The position numbers and the translations under genes were made by a program. The notes beneath the pieces were generated by a model. That model was given only the letters and a program-made list of their open reading frames with translations. It did no database searches and was not told the DNA's origin. DNA of 64,000 nucleotides from Microbulbifer sp. VAAF005. Its GTDB lineage: Bacteria > Pseudomonadota > Gammaproteobacteria > Pseudomonadales > Cellvibrionaceae. The stretch covers positions 930,001 to 994,000 of the forward strand of contig NZ_CP120233.1 of assembly GCF_030012985.1 (NCBI RefSeq). Direction: 5' to 3'. Shown here piece by piece: positions 1 through 16,695 of this stretch. The first letter of the stretch is position 1, and every line of letters begins with the position of its first letter.

Positions 1-144
1 GCTAAAGCCCTGATTCCTGAACCCGCGAAAGTCATCCAGCTTATTAACCAGTGACTCAGCCGAAACCGATGCATAACTTGAGTAGCTAAACAACAAGCAG
101 GCTATCGCCAACACCCACCCATAAAAAGAATTCAACTTATACAT
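1..144 (-). CDS. LolA-like outer-membrane lipoprotein-sorting protein, partial
   Basis: Only the N-terminus is present; the gene runs off the left edge. The ATG at 144 opens a signal peptide of about 25 residues (MYKLNSFYGWVLAIACLLFS, then a small-residue stretch), followed by a mature start containing LVNKLDDFRGFRNQGF. That mature start matches the beginning of LolA-like 'outer membrane lipoprotein-sorting' proteins, which carry lipidic cargo across the periplasm and are often encoded beside LolCDE/MacB-type ABC transporters. It begins 12 nt after the permease stop, so it is probably co-transcribed as the last visible gene of the operon. The family call rests on about 48 residues and the neighbourhood. 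Confidence 0.55.
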   Translation of the reverse strand, partial: MYKLNSFYGWVLAIACLLFSYSSYASVSAESLVNKLDDFRGFRNQGFS

Positions 145-156
145 AGAAGACCCAAA

Positions 157-1386
157 TCAAGTAAACCTAAGTGCTTTTACTACCGGCAGCCGGGATGCTT
201 TTATCGCTGGATAAAGGCTGGAAACAAGTGAAATACAAAAACCCAACAGGAATGTTTTCAATAAGATATCCGGCACGACAAACACACGGATAGGATAATC
301 CTGGGTACTGCCCGGTGGCCGAGGCATCATCCATTCGGCATAGGTAATTCCCTTGGCTGCCAGTGCACCAATCAGTAGCCCCAGCAAACTTCCGATCAAA
401 CCGAGAAATACCGACTCTAGTAAAATCAGGTTTACAACCTGCCGGGGAGTACCGCCCATGGCTCGGATAGTACCCAGCTCACGGGTACGCTCCATTACTG
501 CCATCAACATGGTATTGGAAATACTCAACGCGACGATTACCAACACAATGACGGTAATAAAACCAAAAACTCCGTTAAACAGGCCAACAACCTGATGATA
601 GTAACCCGCCAGTTCTTCCCAGCTTTTTATTTCTAGGTTCAAATTGTTCTGCTCAAAGACACTGGCCAGAGTCGCAATTGAGGTAGATGTAAGTTCGGTC
701 TCCTCCAGTAAAACCACTAGCCGTGTAATATCTGACGTATAGAGCAGTTCCTGGGCCAGAGGCAAATTCACCCTGAGCAAGCGATCATCCAGTTCCTTAA
801 CACCGGTTGTGATTACCCCCATCACCTGTACATCGACAGCATTGATTGCTCCATCCTGGGTGCTTGCCAACAGGGTCAAGTAGTCCCCAATCTGAACATC
901 CAGAGCATTGAACAAGTCTTCTCCAAGGTGGGCAGCAGAAATATCCTCTGGAAATAGATCGTCCCCTTGAACAATCTGAATTGCAGAGGAAAGCATCACT
1001 TCTTTCTCCGCATCGATACCAATTCCAGTGATGGCTATCGATTGCTTGCCATCACTAAGCAGGCCATTGAAATTAAGGCGTGGTGCTACCACCAGTGTAT
1101 CGGTTTCGTTTTCTACCAGCTCGGAAATCTTTTTGAGATCCCCATCAGCAATCAGGTATTTTTCCGGTTCCGCTTTGCCAAACTGGTTGTAACCTTTGGC
1201 ATAGATTTGTATATGACCAAGCTGCGAGCGGATCATACTCTCCCGCATCCCCTCATACATCGACTGTACAAAACCGCCAAAAATAATCAGGCTGGTACAA
1301 CCGAAAACGATCGCAGCCAAGGTAATCAGGCTGCGGCGCCCGTTACGCATAATATTCAGCAGTGCAACTTTCCAACCCAAGCCCAT
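157..1386 (-). CDS. FtsX/MacB-type ABC transporter permease
   Basis: A 409-residue inner-membrane permease. The layout is typical of the MacB/LolC/LolE family: a first membrane helix at about residues 18-40 (SLITLAAIVFGCTSLIIFGG), a large periplasmic domain of roughly 220 residues, then three C-terminal helices at about 270-395, with the MERTRELGTIRAMGGT segment characteristic of FtsX domains between helices 2 and 3. Such proteins use cytoplasmic ATPase hydrolysis to move substrates from the inner membrane or periplasm rather than to import. It starts 3 nt after the upstream gene's stop, and the matching ATPase is two genes upstream. In this operon it probably helps export or localise the cluster product. 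Confidence 0.88.
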   Translation of the reverse strand: MGLGWKVALLNIMRNGRRSLITLAAIVFGCTSLIIFGGFVQSMYEGMRESMIRSQLGHIQIYAKGYNQFGKAEPEKYLIADGDLKKISELVENETDTLVVAPRLNFNGLLSDGKQSIAITGIGIDAEKEVMLSSAIQIVQGDDLFPEDISAAHLGEDLFNALDVQIGDYLTLLASTQDGAINAVDVQVMGVITTGVKELDDRLLRVNLPLAQELLYTSDITRLVVLLEETELTSTSIATLASVFEQNNLNLEIKSWEELAGYYHQVVGLFNGVFGFITVIVLVIVALSISNTMLMAVMERTRELGTIRAMGGTPRQVVNLILLESVFLGLIGSLLGLLIGALAAKGITYAEWMMPRPPGSTQDYPIRVFVVPDILLKTFLLGFCISLVSSLYPAIKASRLPVVKALRFT

Positions 1387-1388
1387 GA

Positions 1389-2108
1389 CTAAATACTCCG
1401 AAGCGCCAGCTTGGCTTTAGCGGACCAGTCGGTATCCGACTCGGCCACCTTTCCCCAAAGAACCCGGGCATCATCGGGCTGTTTATTGCGCTCGTAAGCC
1501 TGGGCAAGGTAGAACTCTACAAAGCCAAGAAATTCTTTACCGAACCGATTGCCCACCTGTTCCTTAACCAGCTCCAGGTCTTCAACAGCGTAGCGCGCTC
1601 TTTTTAGAAAGGCCGGCATATTGGCACAGCTGATTCCCCGCTGAAGGCGGGCGCCCAGATTAAATGGAGATTGTTTAACAGCCCGGTCCATCATGCGATT
1701 GCCTCGTCTGGAGAACAGCGATAGTTTTGCCAATCGATCAAGGTAGAAGCTGGATTTAAAGGAAGTTGTCGATCCCAATGCAGCATTGAGTTCGGGGTCA
1801 TCCGGGAGACTCTCCACCAGTGACTGCATCAGAGCCTCTAACTCCTCAACATCCTGCAACTCTGCATCTTCCATCGACGTAAGGCGCGCAAGCTGAGCCA
1901 AGTAGGCCTGCTTTCTCTGCTCACTGGTCGTTTCTCCATTGACAGCAGCAAACAGCGCTTCCCTTTCGCTATTGGTGAATGGAATCGGAGTTGGATAGAC
2001 GAAGTCTTCAGCCAAAGCTGGTGCAGAAATTAAGAATACAACTGAAATAGCCAAAGCCGCTCTAGTTAGCGGGCCCCTAGCCAGCAACATTTTCATGATT
2101 GCTGTCAT
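1389..2108 (-). CDS. Exported helical-repeat protein in transporter cassette
   Basis: 239 residues with an N-terminal signal peptide (TRAALAISVVFLISAPALA, cleavage near residue 34). The mature part is rich in alanine and leucine helices, and its C-terminal half (GARLQRGISCANMPAFLKRA, then AQAYERNKQPDDARVLW) looks like tetratricopeptide-type repeats. Its ATG overlaps the stop of the ABC ATPase gene (ATGA) and the permease starts just after it, so it is embedded in the ABC transporter cassette. It is probably a periplasmic or membrane-tethered scaffold for the exporter. No enzymatic motif was seen, and the exact family is not recognised. Confidence 0.6.
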   Translation of the reverse strand: MTAIMKMLLARGPLTRAALAISVVFLISAPALAEDFVYPTPIPFTNSEREALFAAVNGETTSEQRKQAYLAQLARLTSMEDAELQDVEELEALMQSLVESLPDDPELNAALGSTTSFKSSFYLDRLAKLSLFSRRGNRMMDRAVKQSPFNLGARLQRGISCANMPAFLKRARYAVEDLELVKEQVGNRFGKEFLGFVEFYLAQAYERNKQPDDARVLWGKVAESDTDWSAKAKLALRSI

Positions 2109-2808
2109 GCAATAGCCTCCTGAACAATACCTTGAGGCGAAGCTGTATCCTCTACCAAATGACCATCTCGTACCGCGATAACACGAGATGCCAAGCTGGT
2201 TACATAATCATCATGGGTGGCTACGATAAAAGTGACACCCTGCTCCCGGTTGAGCTGCTTCACAAGGCTCATAATGCTCTCCGACGTGCGCGAATCCAGA
2301 TTGGCTGTAGGTTCGTCCGCAAGCACCAGATCCGGCTTACTGACAATTGCCCTGGCAATCGCCACTCGCTGCATCTGCCCCCCGAAAGCTGGGTAGGACG
2401 CTGATTAACCAACTTGGCAAGCCCCACTGCTTCCAGAGCGTCTAACGCTAGTTGCCTGGCATTGTTAGCCCCCCGCAGTGTCAGCGGGTACATCACATTC
2501 TCAAGTGCTGTAAGCACGGGAATCAGGTTAAAAGACTGGAAAACAATCCCAATATGACGACCTCGGAACAGGGAGCGCTGATGCTCTCCCAAACTCCCAA
2601 GATTAACGCCATCAATATGAACTGATCCGGAATCACACTGATCCAATGCGGATAGAAGGTTCAATAATGTGCTCTTACCACTACCGCTGGGTCCTTTCAC
2701 AGCCAGAAACTCACCTCGATCGATAGCAAGATCTATATCCCGCAAGGCGTGGACCCAGAGATCGCCCAATCGATAGCGCTTTGAAACACGCTTAAGCTCA
2801 ACCAACAT
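2105..2808 (-). pseudogene. MacB/LolD-type ABC ATPase, frameshifted in this sequence
   Basis: The ABC ATPase partner of the permease at 157-1386. The upstream frame (2808 to about 2380) carries Walker A (GPSGSGKSTLLNLLS), the Q-loop (FQSFNLIPVLTALENV) and the start of the ABC signature (QLSGG). The downstream frame continues with QRVAIARAIVSKPDLVLADE (Walker B), the D-loop NLDSR and the H-loop TH. The two halves join seamlessly if one base is added to the run of six C's (+ strand) at 2378-2383. As written the reading frame is broken inside the signature motif. The rest is well conserved with no other stop, so either a sequencing error or a very recent lesion is likely. Its start overlaps the stop of the preceding gene. 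Confidence 0.85.
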
Positions 2809-3542
2809 TAACTTTTACCCAGGGTGACTGCCATTTGCCCCAGTTGCTCACAAGAGGTTTGCATCGTGGCAGGACAAGGAGCCATTGCTATCGCTTTTTG
2901 GTAGTAATCCATGGCCACTACCAAATCCTCAGTGCCCTCTCCAGCTTTCACCCAGTAGGCATTAGCCAAAGACAAAAACACCACCTGCTGCATAGCAGCC
3001 GGCAATAGATCGGGCTCTGAATCCATCAGATTCTTAAACCAGGCTTCATCTTCAAACACCCGCTCAAAGTGGCCGCTTACTTCTCCTACATAAGAAAAAG
3101 TAATCAGCCGTATCAAGCGTACATTAAAATCTGAATCGGCACTGAGACCCGCTTGATCCACCTCATCCATCGCATGCCGCAGACGGTAGAGCTTGTAAAG
3201 ACCCATCGCAGGATCAAACATTGCACCTGCGCGCTTGCCCTCATTGGAGTAATACGCTGCACGTATCAGCATGTCGTCTGGACGCTGTTGATACGCGGCT
3301 TCCAGCAAGTGTGCAGCCTTTTCAAGCTCGTTATGGTGACTAAATAACTGCCCAAGCTCCAACATCAAGTCGGGGTCTGTACTATTTTCACCAATCTCCT
3401 GCTGGAGAAACTCCACCTGCTCCATCTCGCCTTCTGAATAGGCAATCTTGCCAAACTCGATGGGAGCAGCACCTGAAAACCAGGCAACAACATTTCCAAT
3501 AAAAAAACTACTGATGAGAATGGTAAGTACTTTTTTAAACAT
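2808..3542 (-). CDS. Membrane-anchored tetratricopeptide-like protein
   Basis: I place the start at the ATG at 3542 because a GGGAG Shine-Dalgarno lies about 7 nt upstream; a longer frame to 3596 would overlap the acyl carrier protein gene. The N-terminus is one hydrophobic segment (VLTILISSFFIGNVVAWFSG), a signal peptide or anchor. It is followed by repeats of TPR character (LMLELGQLFSHHNELEKAAH, then a copy with LLEAAYQQRPDDMLIRAAYY) and a C-terminal repeat with DLVVAMDYYQKAIAMAP. Its stop overlaps the ABC ATPase start. It probably acts as an adaptor between biosynthesis and export; no catalytic residues are apparent. Confidence 0.62.
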   Translation of the reverse strand: MFKKVLTILISSFFIGNVVAWFSGAAPIEFGKIAYSEGEMEQVEFLQQEIGENSTDPDLMLELGQLFSHHNELEKAAHLLEAAYQQRPDDMLIRAAYYSNEGKRAGAMFDPAMGLYKLYRLRHAMDEVDQAGLSADSDFNVRLIRLITFSYVGEVSGHFERVFEDEAWFKNLMDSEPDLLPAAMQQVVFLSLANAYWVKAGEGTEDLVVAMDYYQKAIAMAPCPATMQTSCEQLGQMAVTLGKS

Positions 3543-3561
3543 TGACTGCTCCCGAAGTGCG

Positions 3562-3816
3562 CTAAACTTCTTCCGAGTTTTCAAGTAGTTGACCATCCAT
3601 TTCCCTTAGGGTGGTGTGTTCGTCGAAAACAAGATTTTCAGGGCTCATCACCCCCGGGTATAACTGCTCGCAAATTAGAATCACCTCGACAATATTCAGG
3701 GAATCCACCCCGAGTTCTGCAATGGGTGTATCTGCATCGACAGCATCAACATTCAGCATAAGAGCTATTTGCTCACAAAGCTCTTGTACCTTGTTCTCTA
3801 CAACTGCTGTAGACAT
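3562..3816 (-). CDS. Acyl carrier protein
   Basis: 84-residue free-standing carrier protein. The phosphopantetheine attachment site is the serine in ELGVDSLNIVEV (about residue 40), within the usual DSL motif, and the flanking helices are acidic as expected for an ACP. It should carry the growing or activated substrate as a thioester for the operon's ligase, decarboxylase, dehydrogenases, ketosynthase-like proteins and halogenase. It is separated by 2 nt from the upstream asparagine-synthetase-like gene. No phosphopantetheinyl transferase gene is visible nearby, so a housekeeping one would have to activate it. Confidence 0.92.
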   Translation of the reverse strand: MSTAVVENKVQELCEQIALMLNVDAVDADTPIAELGVDSLNIVEVILICEQLYPGVMSPENLVFDEHTTLREMDGQLLENSEEV

Positions 3817-3818
3817 AA

Positions 3819-4949
3819 TTACTCTCCAGTAACATTTCCTATTTTTAAGTTATTAAATCGCAGCAAGTAGTCCAATGTTAAAGTAAAAACACAAACATGC
3901 TGCTCTCGTTCTGAGTATTTTTGCTGCTGTTTTATGGCAGCAGAACTGATCATGGGCGGTATATAGAACCAGACTTTTGCAAGCCAATGGTGTCCATAAA
4001 AAAACACCCGCTGAAAAGATTCGTAAATATTACAGATAGGTTTATCACTTATTGAAAGTGCCGGTGGAATTACACCCTCATCTCCCGAACCTTCAACAAT
4101 CTCCACCATCTTGCTGGTATTCATTGCCAGTATATTGAGTAAAAACTGGGCAAAAGGCAGATAGAAAGTTTGGAAGGTATAATCTTCCCTATCGAGACTT
4201 GATTCTGAGTCCTGCCAGGCTCGATCCAACTCTTCCTGCACCATGTCGGTGTAACTTTGTAGATCGATCCCTTCTACGACTCTATTTTTATGAGCCTTAT
4301 TAAAGATCTTTGCCCGCTTCTCCTGATAGCCAACCGTTAAAGGCAGGCTTTGTCTACCCACTTTTAATTTGGTGCCGCTTGACTCCGCCAAACGATTGGC
4401 AATATGAGCATAAAAAGTGGTATCAACAGGCGAGAAAAGCTTAGAGGTTACCTCAGGTAAACTGTTGAAGAGTTTATCGGTAGCTTCTTCAGGAGTCACC
4501 AGGGCTGCATCAAATGACCCAAATTGATGATGTTCAGCAGAGAGCCAAATAAGCTCTCTGGCTGATATAACAACATCATCTTCAGGAAAGAGCATTTTAA
4601 CATTCTGCAAAAGGCTCTTTCTTTCTATGGAGAAACCAAAATACTCTATTTCAATTAAGTAGTGGCAATCTACCGTATCGGCACCAACAGCAGGAAACAG
4701 TGATAAATCCTGACCAACAAATAGACGATCGTCCTTCAGGTAATAATAAAGGGGAAATCGAAACGCCTTGCCAACTTGCAAGTGAAAAGTGTTTTTATCA
4801 CTTCTCTTTATAGTTCCTAAAGATGTCCAATCTTCGCCATGGCCTGCTCCCCAATCGGTATCACTTAAAAATGAACTCAGTGAAACTTCTGCACCGACGG
4901 GCAACACTTTTTCTCGCATCAGGGGAGTTTTGCCTTTGCTAGGTCTCAT
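3819..4949 (-). CDS. Asparagine-synthetase-like protein with degenerate active sites
   Basis: 376 residues. Residues about 60-130 resemble the glutaminase-domain end of class B asparagine synthetases (FRFPLYYYLKDDRLFVGQDL, then LQNVKMLFPEDDVVIS). Residues about 170-310 resemble the synthetase domain. The ATP-pyrophosphatase loop SGGLDS appears as SPVDTT, and the later GGDE-type loop appears as GSGDEG. The N-terminal Cys nucleophile of the glutaminase domain is absent. It may therefore be a catalytically silent scaffold or an amide- or lactam-forming enzyme with changed chemistry, as in beta-lactam synthetase relatives. It overlaps the upstream hydrolase by 4 nt. The family call is inferred from motif spacing and is moderate. 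Confidence 0.55.
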   Translation of the reverse strand: MRPSKGKTPLMREKVLPVGAEVSLSSFLSDTDWGAGHGEDWTSLGTIKRSDKNTFHLQVGKAFRFPLYYYLKDDRLFVGQDLSLFPAVGADTVDCHYLIEIEYFGFSIERKSLLQNVKMLFPEDDVVISARELIWLSAEHHQFGSFDAALVTPEEATDKLFNSLPEVTSKLFSPVDTTFYAHIANRLAESSGTKLKVGRQSLPLTVGYQEKRAKIFNKAHKNRVVEGIDLQSYTDMVQEELDRAWQDSESSLDREDYTFQTFYLPFAQFLLNILAMNTSKMVEIVEGSGDEGVIPPALSISDKPICNIYESFQRVFFYGHHWLAKVWFYIPPMISSAAIKQQQKYSEREQHVCVFTLTLDYLLRFNNLKIGNVTGE

Positions 4950-5859
4950 GCAACAGCCCCCTCAGGTTGCCGCATCAAAGTTGTCAACCAGCTGGAAATA
5001 GGTTTTGCCGAAGCAGAAATAGCTGACATATGAGTAGCTCTGGGCAACTCAGTGAGTCCAGCCTTAATACTGGGAGAGAGATACCAGCTCAATACAGTGT
5101 GGAGCACATGGGTATCAAGTACTTCGTCCTTCTCACCGACAAAAAAGTGGGAGGGTACATTTAAACTCGCAAAGAGATCCGCGTATCTCTTTACGTTATA
5201 GGCACTGAGTAAGTTAAACGTGCAGTCCAGAACTCGCCCCTGATTTCCCGCTGCTGATCCCACCGGGGGAAAGCTCAGCACTGATAACTTCCTCAATGGG
5301 GGGAACAAAAGTGCCAGCCAATATTTCAGCATTTTTATTTTTGGCAGATTCTGATCACCAGCCGATGCCCTAGGCCGCGTATAGTGACGTTTCCTTCCGT
5401 AACGAATGTAATACTCAAAGCCAGATGCGGGAATATCGTACTTTCTTGTTTCCTCTGACTGAGTCAGAGGCGGTGCGATCGCAAAAAAACCTGCAATATC
5501 TTTACTGCCATATAGGTGCAGATATTTAAGTGCAACCAATGATCCCGCGCTGTGCCCTCCAAGAACAAAGGCCTTAGCCCCTCTTTTTTGAGGTGTTTTA
5601 ATAGATCGGCAAGATCGTCTTGCAGTTGATCGGAATAATCGAGATCCCCCGGATCACCTTCACTCTTGCCATGGCCTCGCCAGTCCGGCAGACACACACT
5701 AATGCCGTTCCGGTGTACCATTCGTCCGAACATTAAATACCACTGGCTACTGAACGTGCTCCCGTGCATGCAGACAAGCACCAAGTCAGATTCATCGCAC
5801 GGCAACCAGCGAAAGGAGAGTTTTTTTCCATCCCGCGCCTGAAAGAACTCCTGAATCAC
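4946..5859 (-). pseudogene. Alpha/beta hydrolase, frameshifted in this sequence
   Basis: The first frame (from ATG 5859) gives the N-terminal half of an alpha/beta hydrolase: oxyanion loop MHGSTFSSQW and strand CLPDWRGHGKSEGDPGDLDY. It then loses phase just before the nucleophile elbow. The other frame continues with AFVLGGHSAGSLVALKYLHL, supplying the catalytic Ser, then the acid region SLNVPSHFFVGEKDEVLDTH and a C-terminal His (LPRATHMSAIS). Adding one base to the run of six T's (+ strand) at 5584-5589 restores one frame of about 304 residues. It probably acts as a thioesterase or esterase that releases or edits the carrier-bound product. Starts and stops overlap both neighbours. Confidence 0.85.
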
Positions 5860-7823: not shown

Positions 7824-9682
7824 GAGACAGCCTCCACATTTGACAATAATGAATTCCAGGAGGAAGCGTCCATTTCACAAAAAGAGTCCTGATCCTGAAG
7901 GATATCCAGCACCAGCTTGGTACGGGGTAACTCATTGCGAATAAAGAATTTAGCACTGACAATTTTCGAGCGATAGAATTCCTCATCAGTATCATTCAGG
8001 TCCTGACTCAACTTATCTGATGACGCACATGCAGCCTCCAATAAAAGCCAGGCCAAGGTTATATCACCAAGCATATGTAGAATACGTGTGCTATAGGCAG
8101 GAATTTTGAACATTTCTTTTGTTTTCACCCATACCTGCACAGCTTTCAGTGCTGCCTCGAAATGTCCAAACGAAGTCTTTAAGCGCTCAAATTCAATCTC
8201 AAACTGAGGGTAGTCCGTGGCCCGATCGAGGAAATTGTCAATTTCTGCCTGGTAGAATTGGAATAGCTTACTGGAATTACCCAATCCTAACTTATCCCGG
8301 ATCAAGTCCTGGCTCTGGATATAATTCGTTCCCTCCCAGATTGCCAGCACTTTAATATCTCGGGCATATTGCTCTATACCCAGATCCTTGAGATAACCCT
8401 GACCACCACAGGTTTGAATCGCCAATTCACAGATACGCCAAGCCTGGTCACTGATATAGGCTTTAACAACTGGAGTTAGCAGGTTCATTAAACCCTGGTA
8501 GTGAGCAATGCGATCCTTTTTGTCTTCCTGCCCCTGGTAGATTTTGACTAAGCTCTCTGACAATGTCAGTTTAGCAATCAGTGCTCTACAGCCCTCTACC
8601 TTGGATTTCATTTCCAACAACATACGCTGGACATCGGTATGCTCAACGATATTGACCCGGCTTGCGGTAGAGCTAAAGCTCTCGTGAAATCTCTTGCCCT
8701 GTAAGCGCTTTGTCGAATAGGAAAGTGCATTATAGTAGGCTGAGGAAGCCATACCCAAGGCGTAAACACCTGTGCTGATTCGTGCCTGATTCATCAAGGT
8801 AAGAAACTGCAACAAGCCTACATTCTCACGATTCCCCAGTAGGTAAGCTCTACAGGGGCCATTGTCACCAAACCGAAGGTGAGTGTTTGCACACCCTTTA
8901 AAGCCCATTTTCTCAGCTAGAGAAATGCATTCGATATTATTAAACCCACCGAGACTCCCATCCTCTTCAACCCAGTACTTAGGCACAATAAAGCAGGACA
9001 AACCGTAGGTGCCCGAACCGCTTTTTTCGCCACGACCCATAACGAAATAAATGGTGTTTTCTGTCAGGTCGTGCATACCGGCACTTATCAGGTATTTTTC
9101 GCCCGTTAACAAATAAGTGCCATCTTCCAGTTTCGCAGCGCGAGTCTCTACAAGGGATACATCACTTCCCGCCTGGGGTTCAGTGAGGCAGAGACAAGAT
9201 GTCCACTCTGAGGTGGCTAATTTGTCCCTAAACAGGTCTTTTTGCAGATCGGTTCCATATTTTTCCACCAAGGTGGAGGACGGCAGGCAAAAACCACCAT
9301 AAGTCATAAAACTTGGATTTGCCCCCATAAACATTTCCAGGAGCATTTGCATTACAAAGGGCGGAATAGTTGTATTTTGTTCGCCCTCAAGTGAGGAAAT
9401 ATTCCCCCATTCATCCTTAAACCTCCGCCACATCTCAGGGAATGCGCTCGGGAGCTTCACTTTCCCACTCTCTAACTGGCATCCCTCTCGATCTGAATCC
9501 TGATATCCCGGCCCGAGAACCTCATAAGAGAATTTTTTAGCCCGAACTAAAATTTCATGGAGAATCTCTGGTGAGCACCCTTTAAATATCTGGTCGCTGA
9601 ACAGAGTTTTAGCTTCATGGAACTGTTCTTCAATAAGGAATTGAAATTCTCTTATATCAGTTTTATAAATATTATTATCCAT
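7820..9682 (-). CDS. Large acyl-CoA dehydrogenase-family enzyme (DmdC-like)
   Basis: About 620 residues from the ATG at 9682, chosen because AAGGAG sits about 6 nt upstream. The middle domain has CLTEPQAGSDVSLVETRA and GEKYLISAGMHD, the FAD-binding strands of acyl-CoA dehydrogenases. The C-terminal domain has CGGQGYLKDLGIEQYARD followed by IWEGTN, whose Glu is the expected catalytic base. An extra C-terminal helical segment of about 120 residues makes it resemble the long DmdC/FadE5-type enzymes. In this operon it probably introduces a double bond into an acyl-ACP or acyl-CoA intermediate. Its start overlaps the upstream gene's stop; its stop overlaps the halogenase start. Confidence 0.85.
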   Translation of the reverse strand: MDNNIYKTDIREFQFLIEEQFHEAKTLFSDQIFKGCSPEILHEILVRAKKFSYEVLGPGYQDSDREGCQLESGKVKLPSAFPEMWRRFKDEWGNISSLEGEQNTTIPPFVMQMLLEMFMGANPSFMTYGGFCLPSSTLVEKYGTDLQKDLFRDKLATSEWTSCLCLTEPQAGSDVSLVETRAAKLEDGTYLLTGEKYLISAGMHDLTENTIYFVMGRGEKSGSGTYGLSCFIVPKYWVEEDGSLGGFNNIECISLAEKMGFKGCANTHLRFGDNGPCRAYLLGNRENVGLLQFLTLMNQARISTGVYALGMASSAYYNALSYSTKRLQGKRFHESFSSTASRVNIVEHTDVQRMLLEMKSKVEGCRALIAKLTLSESLVKIYQGQEDKKDRIAHYQGLMNLLTPVVKAYISDQAWRICELAIQTCGGQGYLKDLGIEQYARDIKVLAIWEGTNYIQSQDLIRDKLGLGNSSKLFQFYQAEIDNFLDRATDYPQFEIEFERLKTSFGHFEAALKAVQVWVKTKEMFKIPAYSTRILHMLGDITLAWLLLEAACASSDKLSQDLNDTDEEFYRSKIVSAKFFIRNELPRTKLVLDILQDQDSFCEMDASSWNSLLSNVEAVS

Positions 9683-10694
9683 GTCTTGCTCCTTGATATT
9701 CCAACAGCGTACGCCAACTACCTGCACCTAATACCCAGTCAAATATCTGGTTGTGTCTTCCCCGGTAAATCCTCTTGGGATACCTTAATGCCTCACGAAT
9801 ATGCGAAAGGTAATCCTGGCCTAGAGTGTCACCCAGGTGCTGGGCGGAACTAAAATCTATATAGGCGTCTTCCAACACCAATTTCTCAACATTTACCAGT
9901 CTTGAAAGAAATCCCTGAAAATTGGGCGAAGGAATGTCTATTTTCAGGCAACCTACCCTGCCGCCACCCCCTAGAGTTAACAGCCATAGATCAGTCACCT
10001 TTTCCTCAATGTAATAACTGATCAATTCAGACAGAGGTTTAATACTCAAATAGTGCCAGCCGTCCTCTTCGATACTGGGTAACCATGAGGCCTTATCTCT
10101 GTGCGAAAACCCTTTCAGGAGCCCCTTGGCCCATTTCGAGCGGATATCAAAGGAAACTACTCGAGTATCATCACTAGCGTTGGTTGAGATTACCTGCTTA
10201 ATACTCTTTACTAAATCTGGTGCGCCAGATAAAGATGGCGCTTGAGAGAGAATATCGCAGCTGGATATTTGACAGAGATGTGTTTCACAATACTCTCGGC
10301 AGATCCAGGTAGCCGCCACACCTACAAGAACATCTAAGCCATCTTGATCAGGTCCAACTCCAATTCCCAATGAATCCAGGCACTCTTGTTGCCGCTCTTT
10401 GCCCAGTTCGAGATTTAAGATCAAAGCTTCGGCTTCACTACACTTTGAAAAACTCAATACTGCAGCATGGAAGCTGGTGCAGGCGCTACCCACAAATCGG
10501 ATATTATGCCCACCGTCTTCTAAGTCTGCTATAAACTCTACAATCCGACTATCCTGTAGAACATTAGCCTCTCCCGCAGAAACCACATAGATAAGCTCTG
10601 GTAACAAATCATATTGATCCAGGTGTCCTCTCAAGGCATCAAGTAATCGATCAACCTGCCCGCCACTGTCTACCCATAGGTTTTTAATAAACAT
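9675..10694 (-). CDS. Divergent ketosynthase-III/thiolase-fold protein
   Basis: 339 residues with no easily recognised full-length family, but several pieces follow the KAS III pattern. GSACTSFHAAVL, with Cys72, resembles the active-site Cys elbow. It is followed by a strand of the type ALILNLEL. AQHLGDTLGQDYLSHIREAL corresponds to the region around the GH/N motif, and FDWVLGAGSWRTLL to the closing GxGxxW-like strand. The N-terminus is some 40-50 residues shorter than in FabH. It probably forms a condensing pair with the 277-residue protein two genes upstream. The call is from motif order only. Confidence 0.5.
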   Translation of the reverse strand: MFIKNLWVDSGGQVDRLLDALRGHLDQYDLLPELIYVVSAGEANVLQDSRIVEFIADLEDGGHNIRFVGSACTSFHAAVLSFSKCSEAEALILNLELGKERQQECLDSLGIGVGPDQDGLDVLVGVAATWICREYCETHLCQISSCDILSQAPSLSGAPDLVKSIKQVISTNASDDTRVVSFDIRSKWAKGLLKGFSHRDKASWLPSIEEDGWHYLSIKPLSELISYYIEEKVTDLWLLTLGGGGRVGCLKIDIPSPNFQGFLSRLVNVEKLVLEDAYIDFSSAQHLGDTLGQDYLSHIREALRYPKRIYRGRHNQIFDWVLGAGSWRTLLEYQGARHG

Positions 10695-10696
10695 CT

Positions 10697-11227
10697 TTAT
10701 GCTGTCCCGTCCATGGTGTTTATTGTTATATCACCGAAACCGCACTCGATAAGTAATTTAGAAAGCCCCTCAATTAAGAGATCATGGCAATCAACATCCA
10801 CTGCCAACCTGATTTTCAGCTGGTTTGTTCCCGCTTCAAATGGGTGGCGAACCAAGCTATCCTCAATAGCTATATATCGTTTTCCTTCTCTAACCAATAT
10901 TGTTTCTTCACCAGCCAGGTCATGAAGCATTAAAACGGTGTCTTGTAATAGAGCACTTGGCATACGCCCGCCAGCAGGCATCTGCATTTTTATCAAGATT
11001 AAGTCTATATCCAGTTCAGAATCTTCAAAGTATCGCAGAATATCCAGCAGTAATTGATAGTGCTCTGAATGATTCAGTAGCACCGGGCTGGAATTAACTG
11101 GTAGACTGGATAATGCAAGATAGTCCTGCTCAGTACTCAACGGCAGCATTTGTGCTAAGCAGGATTTCAATGTGTCCGGATAGGGGTTACGTTCGAGACA
11201 CGTTGATAGCTCAACAGTCTTCATCAC
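10697..11227 (-). CDS. Unknown protein in the biosynthetic operon
   Basis: 176 residues, soluble, acidic, with no signal peptide or membrane segment. It starts at an ATG overlapping the stop of the upstream 277-residue gene and ends 2 nt before the 339-residue ketosynthase-like gene, so it sits between the two KAS III-like genes and is translationally coupled to the first. Predicted alternating strands near IKMQMPAGGRMPSALLQDTV and a C-terminal alpha/beta stretch (IRLAVDVDCHDLLIEGLSK) suggest a small folded domain. I do not recognise the family and assign no function. Confidence 0.65.
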   Translation of the reverse strand: MMKTVELSTCLERNPYPDTLKSCLAQMLPLSTEQDYLALSSLPVNSSPVLLNHSEHYQLLLDILRYFEDSELDIDLILIKMQMPAGGRMPSALLQDTVLMLHDLAGEETILVREGKRYIAIEDSLVRHPFEAGTNQLKIRLAVDVDCHDLLIEGLSKLLIECGFGDITINTMDGTA

Positions 11228-12057
11228 GCGGCCTCCATTAGATAGAAGTGACTTTGTTCATCAACGGTAACTTCTACAGTGCAATAATAACCATTCAATG
11301 CAATCGAACAGGCTAGAAAATTCTCTTGCTTGTCGAAGCCCTTTTCAGCGCCTTGGCAAATAATATTCAGCCAGGGATCACTACCAAAACAATGCCCCCA
11401 TCGATCATGCAAGTCTGGTAACTTTTGATTGGCCGACAACAATTTGGAGAAAATCTGGCGAATATTCTCCGGAAAGAATGGTAAAGATAAAGTCAGGTCA
11501 TCTCGTCCAACAGCCATTTTTCGGATGACAGTGGCAAATTCTGGAGTTGTATTATAAGTAATCGTGCAGGATGCATTAAGGTTTATACTGTCAAGATCCC
11601 GCACTTCAAACAACAGTGTACAGAGACCAAAACCACTATCGCCCCAATTTTCATTTTCTCGCCAAAACGTTAGATCTAAAACATTGGCGTCAAGAATACT
11701 AACCAGTAAGTAGCGCGATTCCGGATTTTGTGTCAGGTAATGCCGAAGGCTATAACCCCAAGATGCACATTCATAGGTATTAACAAAACTGGTAACTGGC
11801 GCTCTTGCATTATCACCGTAATTGAAGTCCTGCTCACTAATCGCCGATGAGCTCAAAGGAAGTTCAATCATGGTAGAGCATAAAAAATGGCGATCTATTT
11901 GCGAATCTTTTATCTCTGGAGCAGCATCTAATACACTATCTGTCTGTCTTCGGATAATCCTGGCAATATCACTAAAGGCAGTTGATACATCACTACTGGA
12001 TGAGACAGCGATACCTTCTATAGGGATAAAAGCTGCAGATCGTAAATACAGGCTCAT
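11224..12057 (-). CDS. Divergent ketosynthase-III-like protein
   Basis: 277 residues. NTYECASWGYSLRHYL places a cysteine (residue 97) at the KAS III nucleophile position, followed by the strand YLLVSILDA and ENWGDSGFGLCTLLFEV, which matches the FGDGAGAxLL motif. Near the C-terminus WGHCFGSDPWLNI aligns with the GHxxxxDxxxNL segment and LACSIALNGYYCTVEV with the last strands. The usual catalytic His and Asn are not clearly recognisable. Its size and that of the 339-residue partner recall the unequal KAS III heterodimer PqsB/PqsC, although no direct homology is claimed. Its start overlaps the upstream gene by 4 nt. Confidence 0.55.
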   Translation of the reverse strand: MSLYLRSAAFIPIEGIAVSSSSDVSTAFSDIARIIRRQTDSVLDAAPEIKDSQIDRHFLCSTMIELPLSSSAISEQDFNYGDNARAPVTSFVNTYECASWGYSLRHYLTQNPESRYLLVSILDANVLDLTFWRENENWGDSGFGLCTLLFEVRDLDSINLNASCTITYNTTPEFATVIRKMAVGRDDLTLSLPFFPENIRQIFSKLLSANQKLPDLHDRWGHCFGSDPWLNIICQGAEKGFDKQENFLACSIALNGYYCTVEVTVDEQSHFYLMEAA

Positions 12058-13094
12058 ACCCGCAGCCCCTTAAATTTGCTATATATCTCAAAGAAGCACC
12101 GATATGAACTGCCTTCCATTTTTGTGAAAGCCAACAGATCGCGCTGTCGATTCACGGATTTGATCTTTCCTGACAAGACCAGGTTCAGCAAAAGCTCATT
12201 GCTGGTAAATTTCGTTGCCAGTACACGGTTTACACTGTGCATAGAGAAAGTGGTTGCAGCTACCTGCTCATTACACAAATGAATTAGATACTCTATATGA
12301 GCCTGATCTTCGCTGGTTAAATGAGCTTCTTTACAGTCATGTAGCCAAAGCACAAAGTGCATTAGTGATTTAACAAAGCGCGGGCGAACCAGTGTTAAAA
12401 ACCGATTGACGCTACCCAACCCACCTTTGCTCAACAACATGTCTTTGGTAATTGATACTTTACCCTTACAATTTCCCAGCTGTAACGTGCCATTTAAAAA
12501 AGGCTCTCCTACAGCACTCTGCCGTAATTGGTTACAGAGTTCTGGTGGCAACATCACTGTCAGGGGAAAAGGCCTTCCCGGTTGCTTGGTAACTACCATG
12601 GCAAAGCCAAGCTTATGTGCTTCAATGCCGTGGATCTTGTCGACATTCAGTAGCATGTCGCTATCAGTTTCAACCAGCTCTGTCTTCCAACCCATAAGAC
12701 TCGGGCCGCCGGGGTCTGTCATAAGGAAGTGGCCGAAAATCCCCTGCTCCACCCATTTATTGACCTGGGCAAGCTGATCATCTGTAGCAGTCAGGCTCAA
12801 CATAATCGAGCCAAATAGCCCGATCATGTTGTGAAAGTGATTATCCAGTCCTTCATCCCGGACAGTGTCAATAATTTGATCAATAACAAAGGTCTGCTCA
12901 AACTGCTCTAATGGCTGCTGAACCGAAGCGTCCCTAAGTGGTGCAAGCTCTGTCAAAGGATCTTCGATAATCATTGATGCATCGAATAGCCGAGCACAAG
13001 AATTTTCTAACAGCGATTTCAATGTGCTGGGCACTGGTGAAATACTGGATAATTGATTGAGAACAAAACCGCCTACAACCGATTGCATTTCCAT
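12054..13094 (-). CDS. Divergent acyl-CoA dehydrogenase-like protein
   Basis: 346 residues. GHFLMTDPGGPSLMGWKTEL followed by VDKIHGIEAHKLGFAMVVTK is the degenerate form of the acyl-CoA dehydrogenase middle domain (TEPxxGSd, then nGxKxfitn). The C-terminal half is helical, as in that fold, but the YEGT-type catalytic motif is missing and the protein is about 40-50 residues short. It may act as a non-canonical flavoenzyme or as a partner of the 635-residue-class dehydrogenase downstream. It starts 3 nt after the decarboxylase stop and overlaps the next gene by 4 nt. Confidence 0.6.
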   Translation of the reverse strand: MEMQSVVGGFVLNQLSSISPVPSTLKSLLENSCARLFDASMIIEDPLTELAPLRDASVQQPLEQFEQTFVIDQIIDTVRDEGLDNHFHNMIGLFGSIMLSLTATDDQLAQVNKWVEQGIFGHFLMTDPGGPSLMGWKTELVETDSDMLLNVDKIHGIEAHKLGFAMVVTKQPGRPFPLTVMLPPELCNQLRQSAVGEPFLNGTLQLGNCKGKVSITKDMLLSKGGLGSVNRFLTLVRPRFVKSLMHFVLWLHDCKEAHLTSEDQAHIEYLIHLCNEQVAATTFSMHSVNRVLATKFTSNELLLNLVLSGKIKSVNRQRDLLAFTKMEGSSYRCFFEIYSKFKGLRV

Positions 13095-13097
13095 GAT

Positions 13098-14246
13098 CTA
13101 CTCCACCAGATAAGAGTTCGGAGCCGGCAACTTGAGGAAAGGTTCTACGGTATAACTTGCGTTATAGGCACCACATCCATCAAATATGACTAAGTCCCCT
13201 TCTCGAAGGCCAATATTGTTGACTTCCCCAATCACATCTTCCTTATTGCAAGAAGTGCCCACTAAAAGGACTTTCTGCCCCTCATCATTCCCTTTTAGAG
13301 GAGTCCCATTACGCAAAACATGAGGTTGCTGGAATCGTTTAAAGGTACTTTCCGTTTTCGCCAACAGAAAATTTTGGGCCATTCCCCCATCACATACGGC
13401 GTACTTGTCACCGTTAATGGACTTTTTATAGCGAACTTCCGTGACGAAATAACCGGCTGAGCCCATAATTGCTCGACCACTCTCGTGAACTACCTTGATA
13501 TGATCTGGAAATTCAGCAATCAAATTTCTATATTGCTCAAAATCAAACTCCTGCTCTCGCCAATTGGGGTCAAACCCACCACCTAGATTGGCTAATGACA
13601 GAGGGTATCCCAGTATTTCCTCAAACTTATAAACAACTTGCAAGGCCACTTTGGCAGTGTCGAAAGCACCTTTATTAAAGGAGTATGAGCCCCTGAACAA
13701 ATGAAAACCTAAAACTGGAATCTCATGTTTCTTGCAAAAATCCAAAGCCTCAAGGCAGCCATTCCAGTCGAAACCAAAATGATCTTTTCTTAGGCCCTTT
13801 TGATTTCTATCAAAGTGGCTCAAGATTGAGGGATTAAGCCTTAAAACGACAGGGTTTACTGGCCGCCTTGCCTTCAACTCCTCAACCAAAGCTAATTGAT
13901 TCAGGTTGTCGATAATTAAATGGCACTTACTCGCAATGGCAGCGCGTATAAAGGCCTTATCTGCCGATGGGTTATTGACAAATCGGGGACTATTCCCTTT
14001 GGGAAGTAGATTTAGTTCGCCTATAGATGCAATCTCAATACCGTCTTCAAAGATGTGCCCACAACGAAGTATTAAATCAAGACAACTATTGGCTTTTAGA
14101 GAGTATATCAATCCCGTGCCCAGCGCTTCCTTCAGCTGCTTGTAGTTATCGTGAGCAGTTTTAACGGAATAGATATAACAAGGTGTAGATAGCTGTTTCT
14201 TGTTTTGGCCCAACTGTTGAACCAGCGCATCTGACAGTGCACCCAT
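13098..14246 (-). CDS. Fold-type III PLP-dependent amino-acid decarboxylase
   Basis: 382 residues of the ornithine/diaminopimelate decarboxylase family. The PLP-binding lysine lies in YSLKANSCLDLIL (about residue 50). GFHLFRGSYSFN holds the specificity-helix region, NLGGGFDPNW the PLP phosphate-binding glycines, HESGRAIMGSAGYFV the Arg/Gly loop, and GTSCNKEDVIG the CxxxD catalytic Cys and substrate Asp pair. Members that work beside a ligase and an ACP, such as butirosin BtrK and the exosortase-A-associated decarboxylases, act on carrier-bound or unusual amino acids. The same logic is likely here because the ligase gene lies 92 nt upstream and the ACP is in the operon. The substrate is not identifiable from sequence. 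Confidence 0.88.
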   Translation of the reverse strand: MGALSDALVQQLGQNKKQLSTPCYIYSVKTAHDNYKQLKEALGTGLIYSLKANSCLDLILRCGHIFEDGIEIASIGELNLLPKGNSPRFVNNPSADKAFIRAAIASKCHLIIDNLNQLALVEELKARRPVNPVVLRLNPSILSHFDRNQKGLRKDHFGFDWNGCLEALDFCKKHEIPVLGFHLFRGSYSFNKGAFDTAKVALQVVYKFEEILGYPLSLANLGGGFDPNWREQEFDFEQYRNLIAEFPDHIKVVHESGRAIMGSAGYFVTEVRYKKSINGDKYAVCDGGMAQNFLLAKTESTFKRFQQPHVLRNGTPLKGNDEGQKVLLVGTSCNKEDVIGEVNNIGLREGDLVIFDGCGAYNASYTVEPFLKLPAPNSYLVE

Positions 14247-14338
14247 AACTCCCCCAAGGGTTAAACGTATCGTTTATATTTTTATTAAGTTAGCGTTTTA
14301 TGTCTTAGGCGGGATCCCGCCTAAATATACTCAGATCA

Positions 14339-15814
14339 TTAGGCATGGACTTGTAAATCCTGTTCTAAGCGCTTCCTATCGACCTTGCTATTAGCGGTTA
14401 ATTGAATTCCATCAACAAACCTGATATCTCTTGGCATGTAGTCAGTATCTATGTTCGCTTTCAGCCAAGTGCGAAACTGCTTCTGATTGTCAGCGATATT
14501 CTCATGAAGCTCCACAACACAAGTAGCCACTTCATTTTCGAGTTTATCTTTGGTGCCGATGACTGCATTGATATGCACCAATGGGCACATATCTATATGA
14601 TTTTCCAAGTCCTTTGGAAACAGGCAAAATCCGCCTTGTTTTATTAAGTCTTTTGAACGCCCTTTAAAATAGAAAAAGCCATCCTGATCACGGGTAAAAA
14701 GGTCTCCCGTCGCCAACCAATTGTCGTCTCGATATCTGCCCGAAAAGATTTCTGCACCACCTTGAGCGGCGGGGTTATAGTAGCCTTGCATCACTGCCGT
14801 CCCACGAACATAAAGCTCACCTACCTCATCAGCTTTTGCTTCTCTAAATTTACTGACCTCTGAGTGAGGTATAAATACACGTGCATCCAGGCCAGGGATC
14901 GGCTTGCCAACTGAACCCATCTTTTCTTCCCAAAGCTCTGGCTCCAAGTACAAGGCTCGCTTGCACTCAGTCAAACCATACATAGAGAAAACATTTAGAC
15001 TTGGGCAGTACTCCTTCCAGGCGCGAATCATGTACTCAGATAAATGGCCCCCAGTATTGGTGATACTGCGCAGGTTGCTGAGGTCAGGTTTAACCAAACC
15101 CACCAGTTTCACTAGGGCAGCCCCCATTGCTGGCACGATCGGAAGAACAGATATATCCCGCTCTGAAATCGTTTTAAGGGCTTGTATGGGGTTAAATGGT
15201 TTGTCGTAGAGGATGGTTGTACAGTTGCTATATAGCGCAAATAGTACCTGATAAAGACCGTAGTCAAATGATAAAGGGGATAAGCACAAAATTCTGTCCT
15301 GTGCTGTCAGGCCCAAATATTGGGATATTGAGGCCAAGGAGGTCAGAACATTTTGATGGGTAAGCATAATGCCTTTTGGCTTACCAGTACTTCCTGAGGT
15401 ATAGATCACCAGAGCCAGATCCACGCCTGTGACCACTGGAGTAGAAGACACTTCAAACTCTGAGCATTCCTGCTGATAATCGGGCAAGGCCTCAATTTTT
15501 CCAGCACGCCATATCGCCTTGGCATTGCAGTCTGAAGCGATCATTTTAATTGAAGAATGGCTCAGATCCCCCTTTGCAGGTACAACCACCAACCCCATCT
15601 TCCACGCCGCCAACATAATGGCGACCGCCTCTATTTCAGACTGAGTACACACTAAAATGCGATCGCCAGCACTGAAACAAACTTCTTCATTTGTAAGTGA
15701 GAGCCACGCATTCTCACAGTGAGCCGCGGTCAAAACCTCGCCATCCAGATTTTCCAGACGACCTTGCCAACATTTTTCCACAACTTTCTCGAACAGGCTG
15801 GCAAGAGAAAACAT
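14339..15814 (-). CDS. AMP-forming acyl/aminoacyl ligase
   Basis: 491 residues, ANL superfamily. Core motif A3 is VIYTSGSTGKPKGIMLTHQN (residues about 135-155), A5 is MYGLTECKR, A7 is LATGDLFTRD, A8 is FKGRSKDLIKQGG and the A10 lysine is in LTANSKVDRKRL. It activates a carboxylic or amino acid as an acyl-adenylate and loads it on CoA or, more likely here, on the operon's ACP. It is the first gene of the 16-gene operon and lies downstream of an 880-bp AT-rich region that should hold the promoter. The C-terminal domain appears complete. The specificity pocket cannot be read reliably by eye. Confidence 0.9.
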   Translation of the reverse strand: MFSLASLFEKVVEKCWQGRLENLDGEVLTAAHCENAWLSLTNEEVCFSAGDRILVCTQSEIEAVAIMLAAWKMGLVVVPAKGDLSHSSIKMIASDCNAKAIWRAGKIEALPDYQQECSEFEVSSTPVVTGVDLALVIYTSGSTGKPKGIMLTHQNVLTSLASISQYLGLTAQDRILCLSPLSFDYGLYQVLFALYSNCTTILYDKPFNPIQALKTISERDISVLPIVPAMGAALVKLVGLVKPDLSNLRSITNTGGHLSEYMIRAWKEYCPSLNVFSMYGLTECKRALYLEPELWEEKMGSVGKPIPGLDARVFIPHSEVSKFREAKADEVGELYVRGTAVMQGYYNPAAQGGAEIFSGRYRDDNWLATGDLFTRDQDGFFYFKGRSKDLIKQGGFCLFPKDLENHIDMCPLVHINAVIGTKDKLENEVATCVVELHENIADNQKQFRTWLKANIDTDYMPRDIRFVDGIQLTANSKVDRKRLEQDLQVHA

Positions 15815-16695
15815 TTTTAGTCCATTTATTATTCTAAGATTTTTGATCTAGTCCGAATAAGCCTAAAAAAAACTATTCAAACCGGCTACATGGGACGATC
15901 ATTTTATAAATCGGATGACCCAATAATGACAAGCATTTTCTGTAAAGCTTATGACAACCTCTTTATCAATCCATGAAAAGTTTCATCCTGTTAGAAATTA
16001 TTCGATCTGACTAAACATTACAAACATTCCAAAAGACAAATAAATCAAGAAGTTAATAAACCCTTTTTCCGATCTCGCACCACTACCAAGTAAAAAAATA
16101 GGCAATGAAAAACCAATTTATCCAGAATTTAATTCCGTCAAATGACCAAAAAAAGAAAATAATTTTTTTGGTAGTAAAACCCTATAAAGCCAAAAAAATT
16201 TGAACCGAATGGTCACAAAATAGGATGGGCAAATATTAAAAATTACTCAAACTTATTTCTGAAGGTGGTTTTTGAGAACCATGAAACCTTGAGAGATTTC
16301 TTTTACAAGTGATCGGCTACCGGCACTGAAAGCCAGATAAATATTTGAATGCAAGTTAATGTAATAATTTCGGTTACAGGAGAGTCAGATCAGTAGCGGT
16401 GTGAAATTACTGACTTCAAGTAAACCTTTAAATCCAGGTCTGTCAGACAAAACATGGGCGCCAGCCTAAAAACGACAGACTAATAATTACAATAAAATTG
16501 ACCTTTTAAATCACCGGCCTCATCAGATCAAAATTAAGCCAAACTTATCGCTAAAGATACCCAAGTTACGCCTGGGGATAGTCATCTTTATAATCCGGCA
16601 GTTAACACAAAAAATTGGCACGAAATAACCCCAATAGAGGAAGCAATACCACACACTTACGTATCACGCACGCCTTGCATATAGAGGTAGCTATT
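15815..16695. promoter_or_regulatory. Long AT-rich divergent upstream region
   Basis: About 880 bp without a supported gene, between the minus-strand biosynthetic operon and the plus-strand DUF1254 gene. It is visibly AT-rich, with many A and T tracts around 15,835-16,260, and must contain the promoters for both sides. I found no convincing operator palindrome, riboswitch or tRNA in it. Confidence 0.45.

Follow-up and report, generated by a model that had tools for sequence, protein, structure and literature searches.

A minus-strand operon of Microbulbifer sp. VAAF005 shares its core with the Burkholderia afc cluster and likely encodes an afc-like peptide assembly line

The stretch of Microbulbifer sp. 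VAAF005 DNA analyzed here (the window; 64,000 nucleotides, positions 930001-994000 of a 5.4-Mb genome in one contig) contains a minus-strand operon for an adenylating ligase, a fold-III pyridoxal phosphate (PLP) decarboxylase, a free acyl carrier protein (ACP), several partner enzymes and a transporter. By sequence comparison, the core of this operon is orthologous to that of the afc cluster of Burkholderia, namely AfcQ, AfcP, AfcJ, AfcK, AfcL and AfcE together with an ATP-binding cassette (ABC) ATPase and a permease. The afc cluster makes AFC-BC11, an antifungal N-acyl-tri(dehydro-beta-alanyl) peptide that the main text of its description (J Am Chem Soc 2025, PMC12186527) reports as an unprecedented structure from nonclassical machinery with no normal peptide synthetase. 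We consider it likely that the Microbulbifer operon encodes a related assembly line, free of condensation domains, whose product is an oligo-beta-alanine or dehydro-beta-alanine peptide. Because the core enzymes are shared and the partner genes, including a halogenase-type enzyme, differ, the product is probably related to AFC-BC11 yet undescribed. An earlier note, made from the sequence of this DNA alone, had left the cluster unassigned; its orthology to the characterized afc core (PMC12186527) now provides an assignment.

The link to afc came from reading the genes around homologues of a 346-amino-acid (aa) protein of the operon, which revealed Burkholderia, Chromobacterium and Pseudomonas loci with the same core in another order. 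Iterated profile scores take in distant members by construction, and orthology therefore rests on pairwise comparison with the afc proteins of B. puraquae (L076; two B. puraquae stretches were read, 36 kb). The 635-aa dehydrogenase matches AfcE (46%, E 0), the decarboxylase AfcP (36%, E 1e-69), the 346-aa protein AfcJ (35%, E 7e-65), a 277-aa protein AfcL (37% across 187 aa, E 3e-37), the ACP AfcK (54%, E 2e-20) and the permease the afc permease (31%, E 3e-55), and the two pieces of the ABC ATPase match the afc ABC ATPase (front 42%, E 6e-23; rear 46%, E 5e-18). The ligase matches AfcQ (29%, E 8e-49, 168 bits) far better than AfcA (E 1e-12, 62 bits), which led us to reject an AfcA identity for it. 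Matches were weaker than those of the core for the LolA-like protein (26%, E 2e-12) and weak for a 176-aa protein against the gene that follows AfcL (22%, E 4e-4), which we call AfcM by position alone and which the iterated profile of the 176-aa protein also matches in afc loci. The Afc names are anchored in B. puraquae because the published Cys111 of AfcL and Ser40 of AfcK are found at exactly these positions in its orthologues, and because a citrate synthase gene adjoins the AfcE-type dehydrogenase there, in agreement with the adjacent numbering of the citrate synthase BCAS0207 and afcE (BCAS0208) in the portion of PMC6301696 consulted.

Gene order is shared in part. The operon runs Q-P-J-L-M-339aa-E-halogenase-hydrolase-376aa-K-TPR1-ABC-TPR2-permease-LolA-447aa (TPR, tetratricopeptide repeat), whereas B. 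puraquae has A-ABC-permease-LolA-J-K-L-M-O-P-Q-R-E-S with other genes interspersed, the common neighbors being J-(K)-L-M and ABC-permease-LolA. Both clusters thus combine the AfcQ/P/J/K/L/E set with the AfcM-position gene, ABC ATPase, permease, LolA-like protein and one carrier protein, and the proteins of the window operon and of two genes beyond the window edge gave no Pfam match to a nonribosomal peptide synthetase (NRPS) condensation domain. The two differ in that afc contains the fatty acyl-AMP ligase (FAAL) AfcA as well as AfcO and AfcR, none of which is present in the window operon. In afc, AfcA supplies the fatty acyl cap and sets the trimer length, and the citrate synthase AfcS and O-methyltransferase AfcT serve the malic-acid tail, according to the main text of PMC12186527; no citrate synthase or O-methyltransferase Pfam family was found among the window operon proteins and the two beyond, the other marine loci lying outside that search. 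Conversely, the window operon adds a 339-aa Cys/His protein, a halogenase-type flavoenzyme, a serine hydrolase, a 376-aa asparagine synthetase (AsnB)-like protein and TPR proteins, none of which was matched significantly in the two B. puraquae stretches. The earlier note had named a characterized cluster of the same order and high identity as its test; what we find is a shared core in partly the same order, with identities of 29-54% for six Afc enzymes and a different accessory set.

Among solved structures, the ligase is closest to VinN (3wvn), and the VinN pocket positions, counted onto it, fall on Asp184, Thr254 and Arg286, with Thr in place of the VinN Ser, as in AfcQ. The full code, D184/T254/R286/K477, is that of B. 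puraquae AfcQ and predicts side-chain activation of L-Asp. We compared 81 ligase rows, in which the window is present twice and some organisms were fetched twice, after 4 of 84 open reading frames (ORFs; L017, L051, L054 and L055) had been excluded by length, an exclusion that leaves three afc loci without a typed AfcQ. D/T/R together with the catalytic Lys is found in 56 rows, D/G/L/K in 24 and C/A/P/K in 1. Independent BLASTP typing placed 56/56 of the first group closest to AfcQ and 24/24 of the second closest to AfcA; the C/A/P/K row is closer to AfcQ by BLASTP and fits neither code, leaving code and typing in agreement for 80 of 81. The same typing limited to genome-record loci except L070 gave 42 D/T/R/K and 19 D/G/L/K rows. 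The earlier note had compared the operon with both butirosin-type and pyrrole-type carrier-bound amino-acid chemistry. The former comparison stands, the best Protein Data Bank (PDB) match of the decarboxylase being BtrK (2j66), but pyrrole (prolyl-carrier) chemistry is unsupported because the ligase resembles VinN and AfcQ and has a decarboxylase as its partner, its pocket pointing to aspartate instead. A plasmid search with the ligase gave 3109 records, every one below 60%.

The remaining core enzymes retain their catalytic residues in all rows examined (counts include the window row). Lys51, His182, Cys333 and Tyr361 of the decarboxylase are kept in 50/50 rows, Ser39 of the ACP in 44/44, C97/H222/D227 of the AfcL-type protein in 52/52 (the Asp that completes this triad being our own assignment), Glu465 of the AfcE-type dehydrogenase in 30/30 and Glu327 of the AfcJ-type protein in 52/52; the roles of such residues in the AfcJ-type, AfcE-type and 339-aa proteins are presumed from general knowledge of their families. 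Of the two acyl-CoA-dehydrogenase-type proteins proposed earlier, the 635-aa protein is a full member of that family, whereas the 346-aa AfcJ orthologue has no Pfam or NCBIfam match and finds FadE3 as its best PDB profile match at E 0.03. Of the two ketoacyl synthase III (KAS III)-like proteins proposed, the 277-aa protein is supported as such through its orthology to AfcL, which the AFC paper terms KAS III-like, as it does AfcO and AfcR (PMC12186527, main text). The 339-aa protein, by contrast, gave no family, PDB or profile match and none to KAS III, and profile comparisons do not support an AfcO or AfcR identity for it. In hhalign, the 277-aa family gave five figures of about 99%, including one obtained across 13 columns with the unrelated 376-aa family, and none was used; smaller alignments of the 277-aa family against the 339-aa and 376-aa families gave <1% each.

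Among the parts of the operon that are unlike afc, the 339-aa protein keeps Cys72, His214 and Glu42 in 27/27 rows. For the 655-aa flavoenzyme, PltA (5dbj) is the best PDB match (1e-15), followed by ChlB4, CmlS, other halogenases and the flavoprotein 3nix; homologues comprise relatives at 46-99% and then flavoproteins at 33-40%. The motifs GxGxxG, WxWxIP and FxxPxxSxG occur in 31/31 rows and Lys80 is Lys in 32/32 aligned rows (the window twice), with the strict K-x-G pattern in 23/31; we take these three motifs and the Lys to be halogenase hallmarks, and all four are common to PltA, CmlS, ChlB4 and the flavoenzyme. 3nix, which is not named a halogenase, aligns across the same motifs, and about 300 C-terminal residues of the flavoenzyme fall outside most PDB matches, a difference from PltA, CmlS and ChlB4. 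Halogenation by this enzyme is thus a prediction. Separately, a 35% relative of it from another family of the order (L018 7022-8842, plus strand) adjoins FtsX-type permease frames, and the afc core is not present beside it on the 10.7-kb contig. The GHSxG elbow of the alpha/beta hydrolase occurs in 31/34 whole relatives, and the hydrolase is an attractive candidate for the releasing enzyme because the main text of PMC12186527 assigns no enzyme to final release in afc. The asparagine-synthetase-like assignment of the 376-aa protein survives in reduced form: AsnB is its best PDB match at a nonsignificant E of 0.1, GATase_7 matches at E 3e-5 in the Xenorhabdus member and 0.03 in another member, and SGGxDS and a Met-Cys within the first 60 residues (starts as called) each occur in 0/34 family members. 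The protein is a remote, degenerate relative of asparagine synthetase and at most a remodeled scaffold.

The distribution of these genes suggests two architectures built around a common core. The 346-aa query found 145 homologues, 120 of them listed, and an alignment of 30 led to 55 loci in genome records, of which 53 were counted after dropping L062, whose match list duplicates that of L061, and L068, for which L076 from the same record was used; loci L001, L003-L010, L019 and L020 were outside the ORF set. Locus flanks were 10 kb and cut several loci, so that absences apply to the stretch read and are lower bounds. Of the 53 loci, 50 contain the decarboxylase, AfcJ, AfcL and AfcM-position genes side by side or nearby in one set, AfcJ-type genes being present in all by construction because the loci were found through this protein. 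The exceptions are L057 (AfcJ type alone), L071 (which starts within the AfcJ-type gene) and L030, where the AfcM-position frame is not called and tblastn detects it. The 339-aa gene is present in 26 of the 53 loci, AfcA in 20, and AfcO and AfcR (phmmer, E 1e-8) in 22 each. In 0/53 loci does the 339-aa gene occur together with AfcA, AfcO or AfcR; AfcA is absent from the window operon and from all 26 loci with the 339-aa gene, and AfcO and AfcR are likewise absent from the window. The halogenase-type gene occurs in 22/53 loci, all 22 with the 339-aa gene, and TPR protein 1 in 24 of the 26 339-aa loci. Those 339-aa loci without a called halogenase-type gene are L030 (where a contig end cuts inside it), Xenorhabdus L039, Serratia L040 and L061. 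A third, smaller set, free of a ligase in the stretch read, comprises Rheinheimera L042 and L043, Rhodanobacter L046, Pseudomonas costantinii L047 and its relative L048, which hold the decarboxylase, AfcJ, AfcL, AfcM-position gene and transporter and, in L047 and L048, AfcO and AfcR also. In Pseudoalteromonas denitrificans (L083), the 447-aa gene is followed downstream by an AfcE-type gene, and the stretch read in Collimonas humicola contains an AfcJ-type gene (L057 9524-11047, plus strand) but none of the other core genes. In a quick tree built from 54 AfcJ-type rows, the architecture labels need 7 changes, against a minimum of 5 and a shuffled mean of 25.7; the deep split in this tree is weakly supported (78), with long branches.

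At the level of genomes, the 346-aa protein was found in 2/398 sampled across the phylum, this genome and one congener, and the halogenase-type protein in 7/36 other genomes of the genus, with a 35% relative in 1/21 genomes of other families. In five congeners that carry the operon (G010, G004, G030, G003 and G014), the two genes that flank it in this genome are likewise on a single contig with 23.6-23.9 kb between them, indicating that the locus was inherited in place there. The flanking genes are on two contigs in G009, neither was matched in G006, and G460 shows a similar spacing, the operon not having been searched for there. We found no published description of the marine architecture in a search mainly of listings and abstract openings that left supplements, most subscription papers, MIBiG and antiSMASH outside, and the main text of the AFC paper mentions none of Microbulbifer, Pseudoalteromonas, Chromobacterium, Xenorhabdus or a halogenase (PMC12186527).

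A pathway can be proposed on the model of afc, for which the main text of PMC12186527 reports in vitro activities of AfcQ, AfcK, AfcP, AfcA and AfcL, activation of L-Asp by AfcQ and multiple Asp/beta-Ala additions on AfcK. By analogy to AfcQ and VinN, the ligase (14339-15814) would adenylate the side-chain carboxylate of L-Asp and load it onto the single ACP, and the PLP decarboxylase would convert the ACP-bound Asp to beta-alanyl-S-ACP. The ligase would then add the next Asp to the free amine and the cycle would repeat, with the 635-aa dehydrogenase, perhaps together with the 346-aa protein, introducing double bonds. The 277-aa AfcL-type enzyme would accept the chain on Cys97 and transfer it to an amine. 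More speculatively, the 339-aa Cys/His protein may replace AfcA, AfcO and AfcR in capping or transfer, the halogenase-type enzyme may halogenate or oxidize the carrier-bound chain, and the serine hydrolase may free it, after which the ABC/FtsX/LolA-like set would carry the amphiphile towards the outer membrane. We advance only tentatively, as a doubtful extension, the idea that this is a second afc architecture that makes a condensation-domain-free family of halogenated or oxidized oligo-dehydro-beta-alanine lipopeptides across marine gammaproteobacteria (Microbulbifer, Pleionea, Pseudoalteromonas, Marinomonas, Colwellia, Thalassomonas and relatives), in which a KAS-like enzyme would replace the FAAL in setting chain length and cap and the hydrolase would provide the release step left unassigned in afc.

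The closest structural matches also fit a simpler scheme, in which the ligase, decarboxylase and ACP make one beta- or gamma-amino acyl unit, or another amino acid, for a different molecule, as in butirosin, vicenistatin and bolagladin. VinN and BtrK, the best matches among solved structures, both feed a single unit, and AfcA, the setter of trimer length in afc, is missing. We regard this as unlikely, because no polyketide synthase (PKS) or NRPS module that could use such a unit was found among the Pfam matches of the operon proteins, and AfcL- and AfcJ-type partners accompany the decarboxylase in 50/53 loci, albeit partly through the AfcJ-based choice of loci. As published, VinN/VinO/VinL (vicenistatin) and BtrK/BtrI (butirosin) resemble the operon in joining a PLP decarboxylase and a carrier protein, and in the case of VinN also the ligase, in chemistry on carrier-bound acidic amino acids, but they supply a single amino-acyl unit to a polyketide or an aminoglycoside. 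To our knowledge, these systems are without AfcJ, AfcL and AfcE partners. The bolagladin cluster of B. gladioli comes nearer, with VinN-like side-chain activation of Asp, a BtrK-like decarboxylase, a free ACP and an acyl-CoA dehydrogenase that forms dehydro-beta-alanine (BolO/N/C/Q) in the published account, which also gives the effect of a bolQ deletion; bolagladin, however, proceeds on a modular NRPS, of which there is none in the window operon. Solanimycin is a case of dehydro-alpha-alanine (PMC10204066, as far as consulted).

Several observations weigh against an afc-like peptide assembly line. Identity of the ligase to AfcQ is just 29%, its substrate is deduced from few pocket residues, and VinN has Ser where the ligase and AfcQ have Thr. 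The operon contains no FAAL, the nearest relative elsewhere in the genome being at 31%, and an afc-style acyl cap and chain-length control are therefore unexplained. The hydrolase elbow is absent from two Xenorhabdus-locus rows and the Serratia row, so release by the hydrolase would not be general. Two operon genes are split in this assembly. As for the exporter, the ABC transporter BCAS0204, one of a pair of ABC ATPases encoded close to the afc cluster, is dispensable for antifungal activity in B. cenocepacia (PMC6301696, portion consulted), and afcI, an outer-membrane channel, is dispensable for production in B. pyrrocinia (PMC12186527, main text). Finally, the best NCBIfam model of the ligase is the exosortase-A ligase TIGR03098, and the second-best of the decarboxylase is TIGR03099. 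Together with a marginal match of the hydrolase front piece to TIGR03101 (exosortase-A hydrolase 2, E 0.03) and the Lol/MacB-type transporter with its LolA-like protein, these would fit a set that decorates a surface lipid or polysaccharide for delivery by the Lol-like transporter. Exosortase-A loci likewise include an ACP and a protein resembling asparagine synthetase. In Burkholderia, moreover, afcE mutants have altered membrane lipids (PMC6301696, portion consulted). Such an envelope role is nevertheless improbable: the three scores are far below their cut-offs (260 of 592 bits for TIGR03098 and 130 of 478 for TIGR03099), which led us to reject exosortase-A membership of the ligase and decarboxylase, the Pfam lists of the operon proteins contain no exosortase family, and AfcJ-, AfcL- and AfcE-type genes belong to a pathway with a known peptide product.

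The layout of the operon bears on whether it functions in this strain. The tight minus-strand run from 15814 to 157 described earlier is confirmed, the count of 16 genes is not: with each split gene counted once, 15 genes lie in the window and two more same-strand genes past its edge bring the total to 17 (Table 1). At 11 of the 14 in-window junctions, neighboring genes overlap by 1-4 bases or are separated by 2-3; of the other three, one is a 92-base interval following the ligase gene and two are overlaps, of 53 and 35 bases, that vary with the start codon chosen. Family assignments of the earlier note hold for the ligase, decarboxylase, halogenase-family flavoprotein (Trp_halogenase), ACP and transporter permease, and the operon does have its own transporter, consisting of an ABC ATPase and a MacB/FtsX permease. 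For the alpha/beta hydrolase and the ABC exporter the families are right, with the qualification that the hydrolase gene and the ABC ATPase gene are here each broken into two frames that overlap, where G010, a relative at about 98%, has one open frame for each. These splits, and the absence of sigma-70-like promoter matches upstream of the operon (0, versus 2.8 in shuffles), would be expected of a decaying operon that is functionless in this strain, a view compatible with an afc-like pathway in the relatives. We give it little credence, since the 13 other window genes are open, only two gaps against G010 occur in 15.9 kb, the first next to a 7-base run and the second next to runs no longer than 3, and five congeners have the operon between the same pair of flanking genes. 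The splits could stem from sequencing error or from mutation. A third split gene may exist outside the window, to its left (L002 9015-10603, minus strand), where the Sulfatase and Sulfatase_C domains are encoded by separate frames with a 4-base overlap.

Table 1. Genes of the operon in transcriptional order, with the basis of each assignment
Feature	Coordinates	Strand	Basis
AfcQ-type adenylating ligase, 491 aa, predicted to activate the L-Asp side chain	14339..15814	-	PDB VinN 3wvn; AfcQ match; pocket code
AfcP-type fold-III PLP decarboxylase, 382 aa	13098..14246	-	PDB BtrK 2j66; AfcP match
AfcJ-type divergent acyl-CoA-dehydrogenase-like protein, 346 aa	12054..13094	-	Match to B. puraquae AfcJ orthologue
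AfcL-type KAS III-like acyltransferase, 277 aa	11224..12057	-	AfcL match; C97/H222/D227
Small protein in AfcM position, 176 aa	10697..11227	-	Weak pairwise and iterated-profile match in afc loci
339-aa protein, invariant Cys72/His214	9675..10694	-	Second architecture only; no family or PDB match
AfcE-type acyl-CoA dehydrogenase, 635 aa	7820..9727	-	Pfam acyl-CoA dehydrogenase domains; AfcE match
Halogenase-type flavoenzyme, 655 aa	5856..7823	-	PF04820 (Trp_halogenase); PltA 5dbj; motifs
Alpha/beta hydrolase gene, front piece of split gene	5464..5859	-	PF12146
Alpha/beta hydrolase gene, rear piece	4946..5539	-	Overlapping frame
Degenerate asparagine-synthetase-like protein, 376 aa	3819..4949	-	GATase_7 in Xenorhabdus member
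Free carrier protein (ACP), AfcK-type, 84 aa, Ser39	3562..3816	-	PF00550; AfcK match
TPR protein 1	2808..3596	-	Single TPR match at its cut-off
ABC ATPase gene, front piece of split gene	2269..2808	-	PF00005; afc ABC ATPase match
ABC ATPase gene, rear piece	2105..2374	-	PF00005 tail slightly below cut-off; afc ABC ATPase match
TPR-like protein 2	1389..2108	-	Weak TPR matches below cut-off
MacB/FtsX-type permease	157..1386	-	PF02687; PF12704; afc permease match
LolA-like gene beyond window edge	L002 15392-16144	-	PF17131 (LolA_like)
447-aa gene beyond window edge	L002 14036-15379	-	No family

Beside the operon lie a DUF1254/DUF1214 protein (16615-18228, plus strand) and a flavin-containing monooxygenase (FMO)-like protein (19403-20932, plus strand). 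The former is present at 86-93% in 6/7 operon-bearing congeners (not G006) and in G460, other congeners having it at 43-51% or not at all. Elsewhere in the window, seven Rfam group II intron matches in about 19 kb (six D1-D4 pieces and one RF00029), among them 44330-44623 (minus), 49535-49828 (minus), 50064-50447 (plus) and 63292-63367 (minus), suggest several intron copies.

If the afc-like reading of the operon is true, the afc machinery would be a broad family with at least two architectures. Comparing them would separate the core (AfcQ, AfcP, AfcJ, AfcL, the AfcM-position gene, AfcK and AfcE) from the enzymes of capping, chain length, release and decoration, and the open steps of afc, including the role of AfcJ, release and acyl maturation, would become testable by comparison. 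AFC-BC11 isomers absorb at 326-336 nm, according to the published account, and culturable marine bacteria would be possible producers of light-sensitive peptides.

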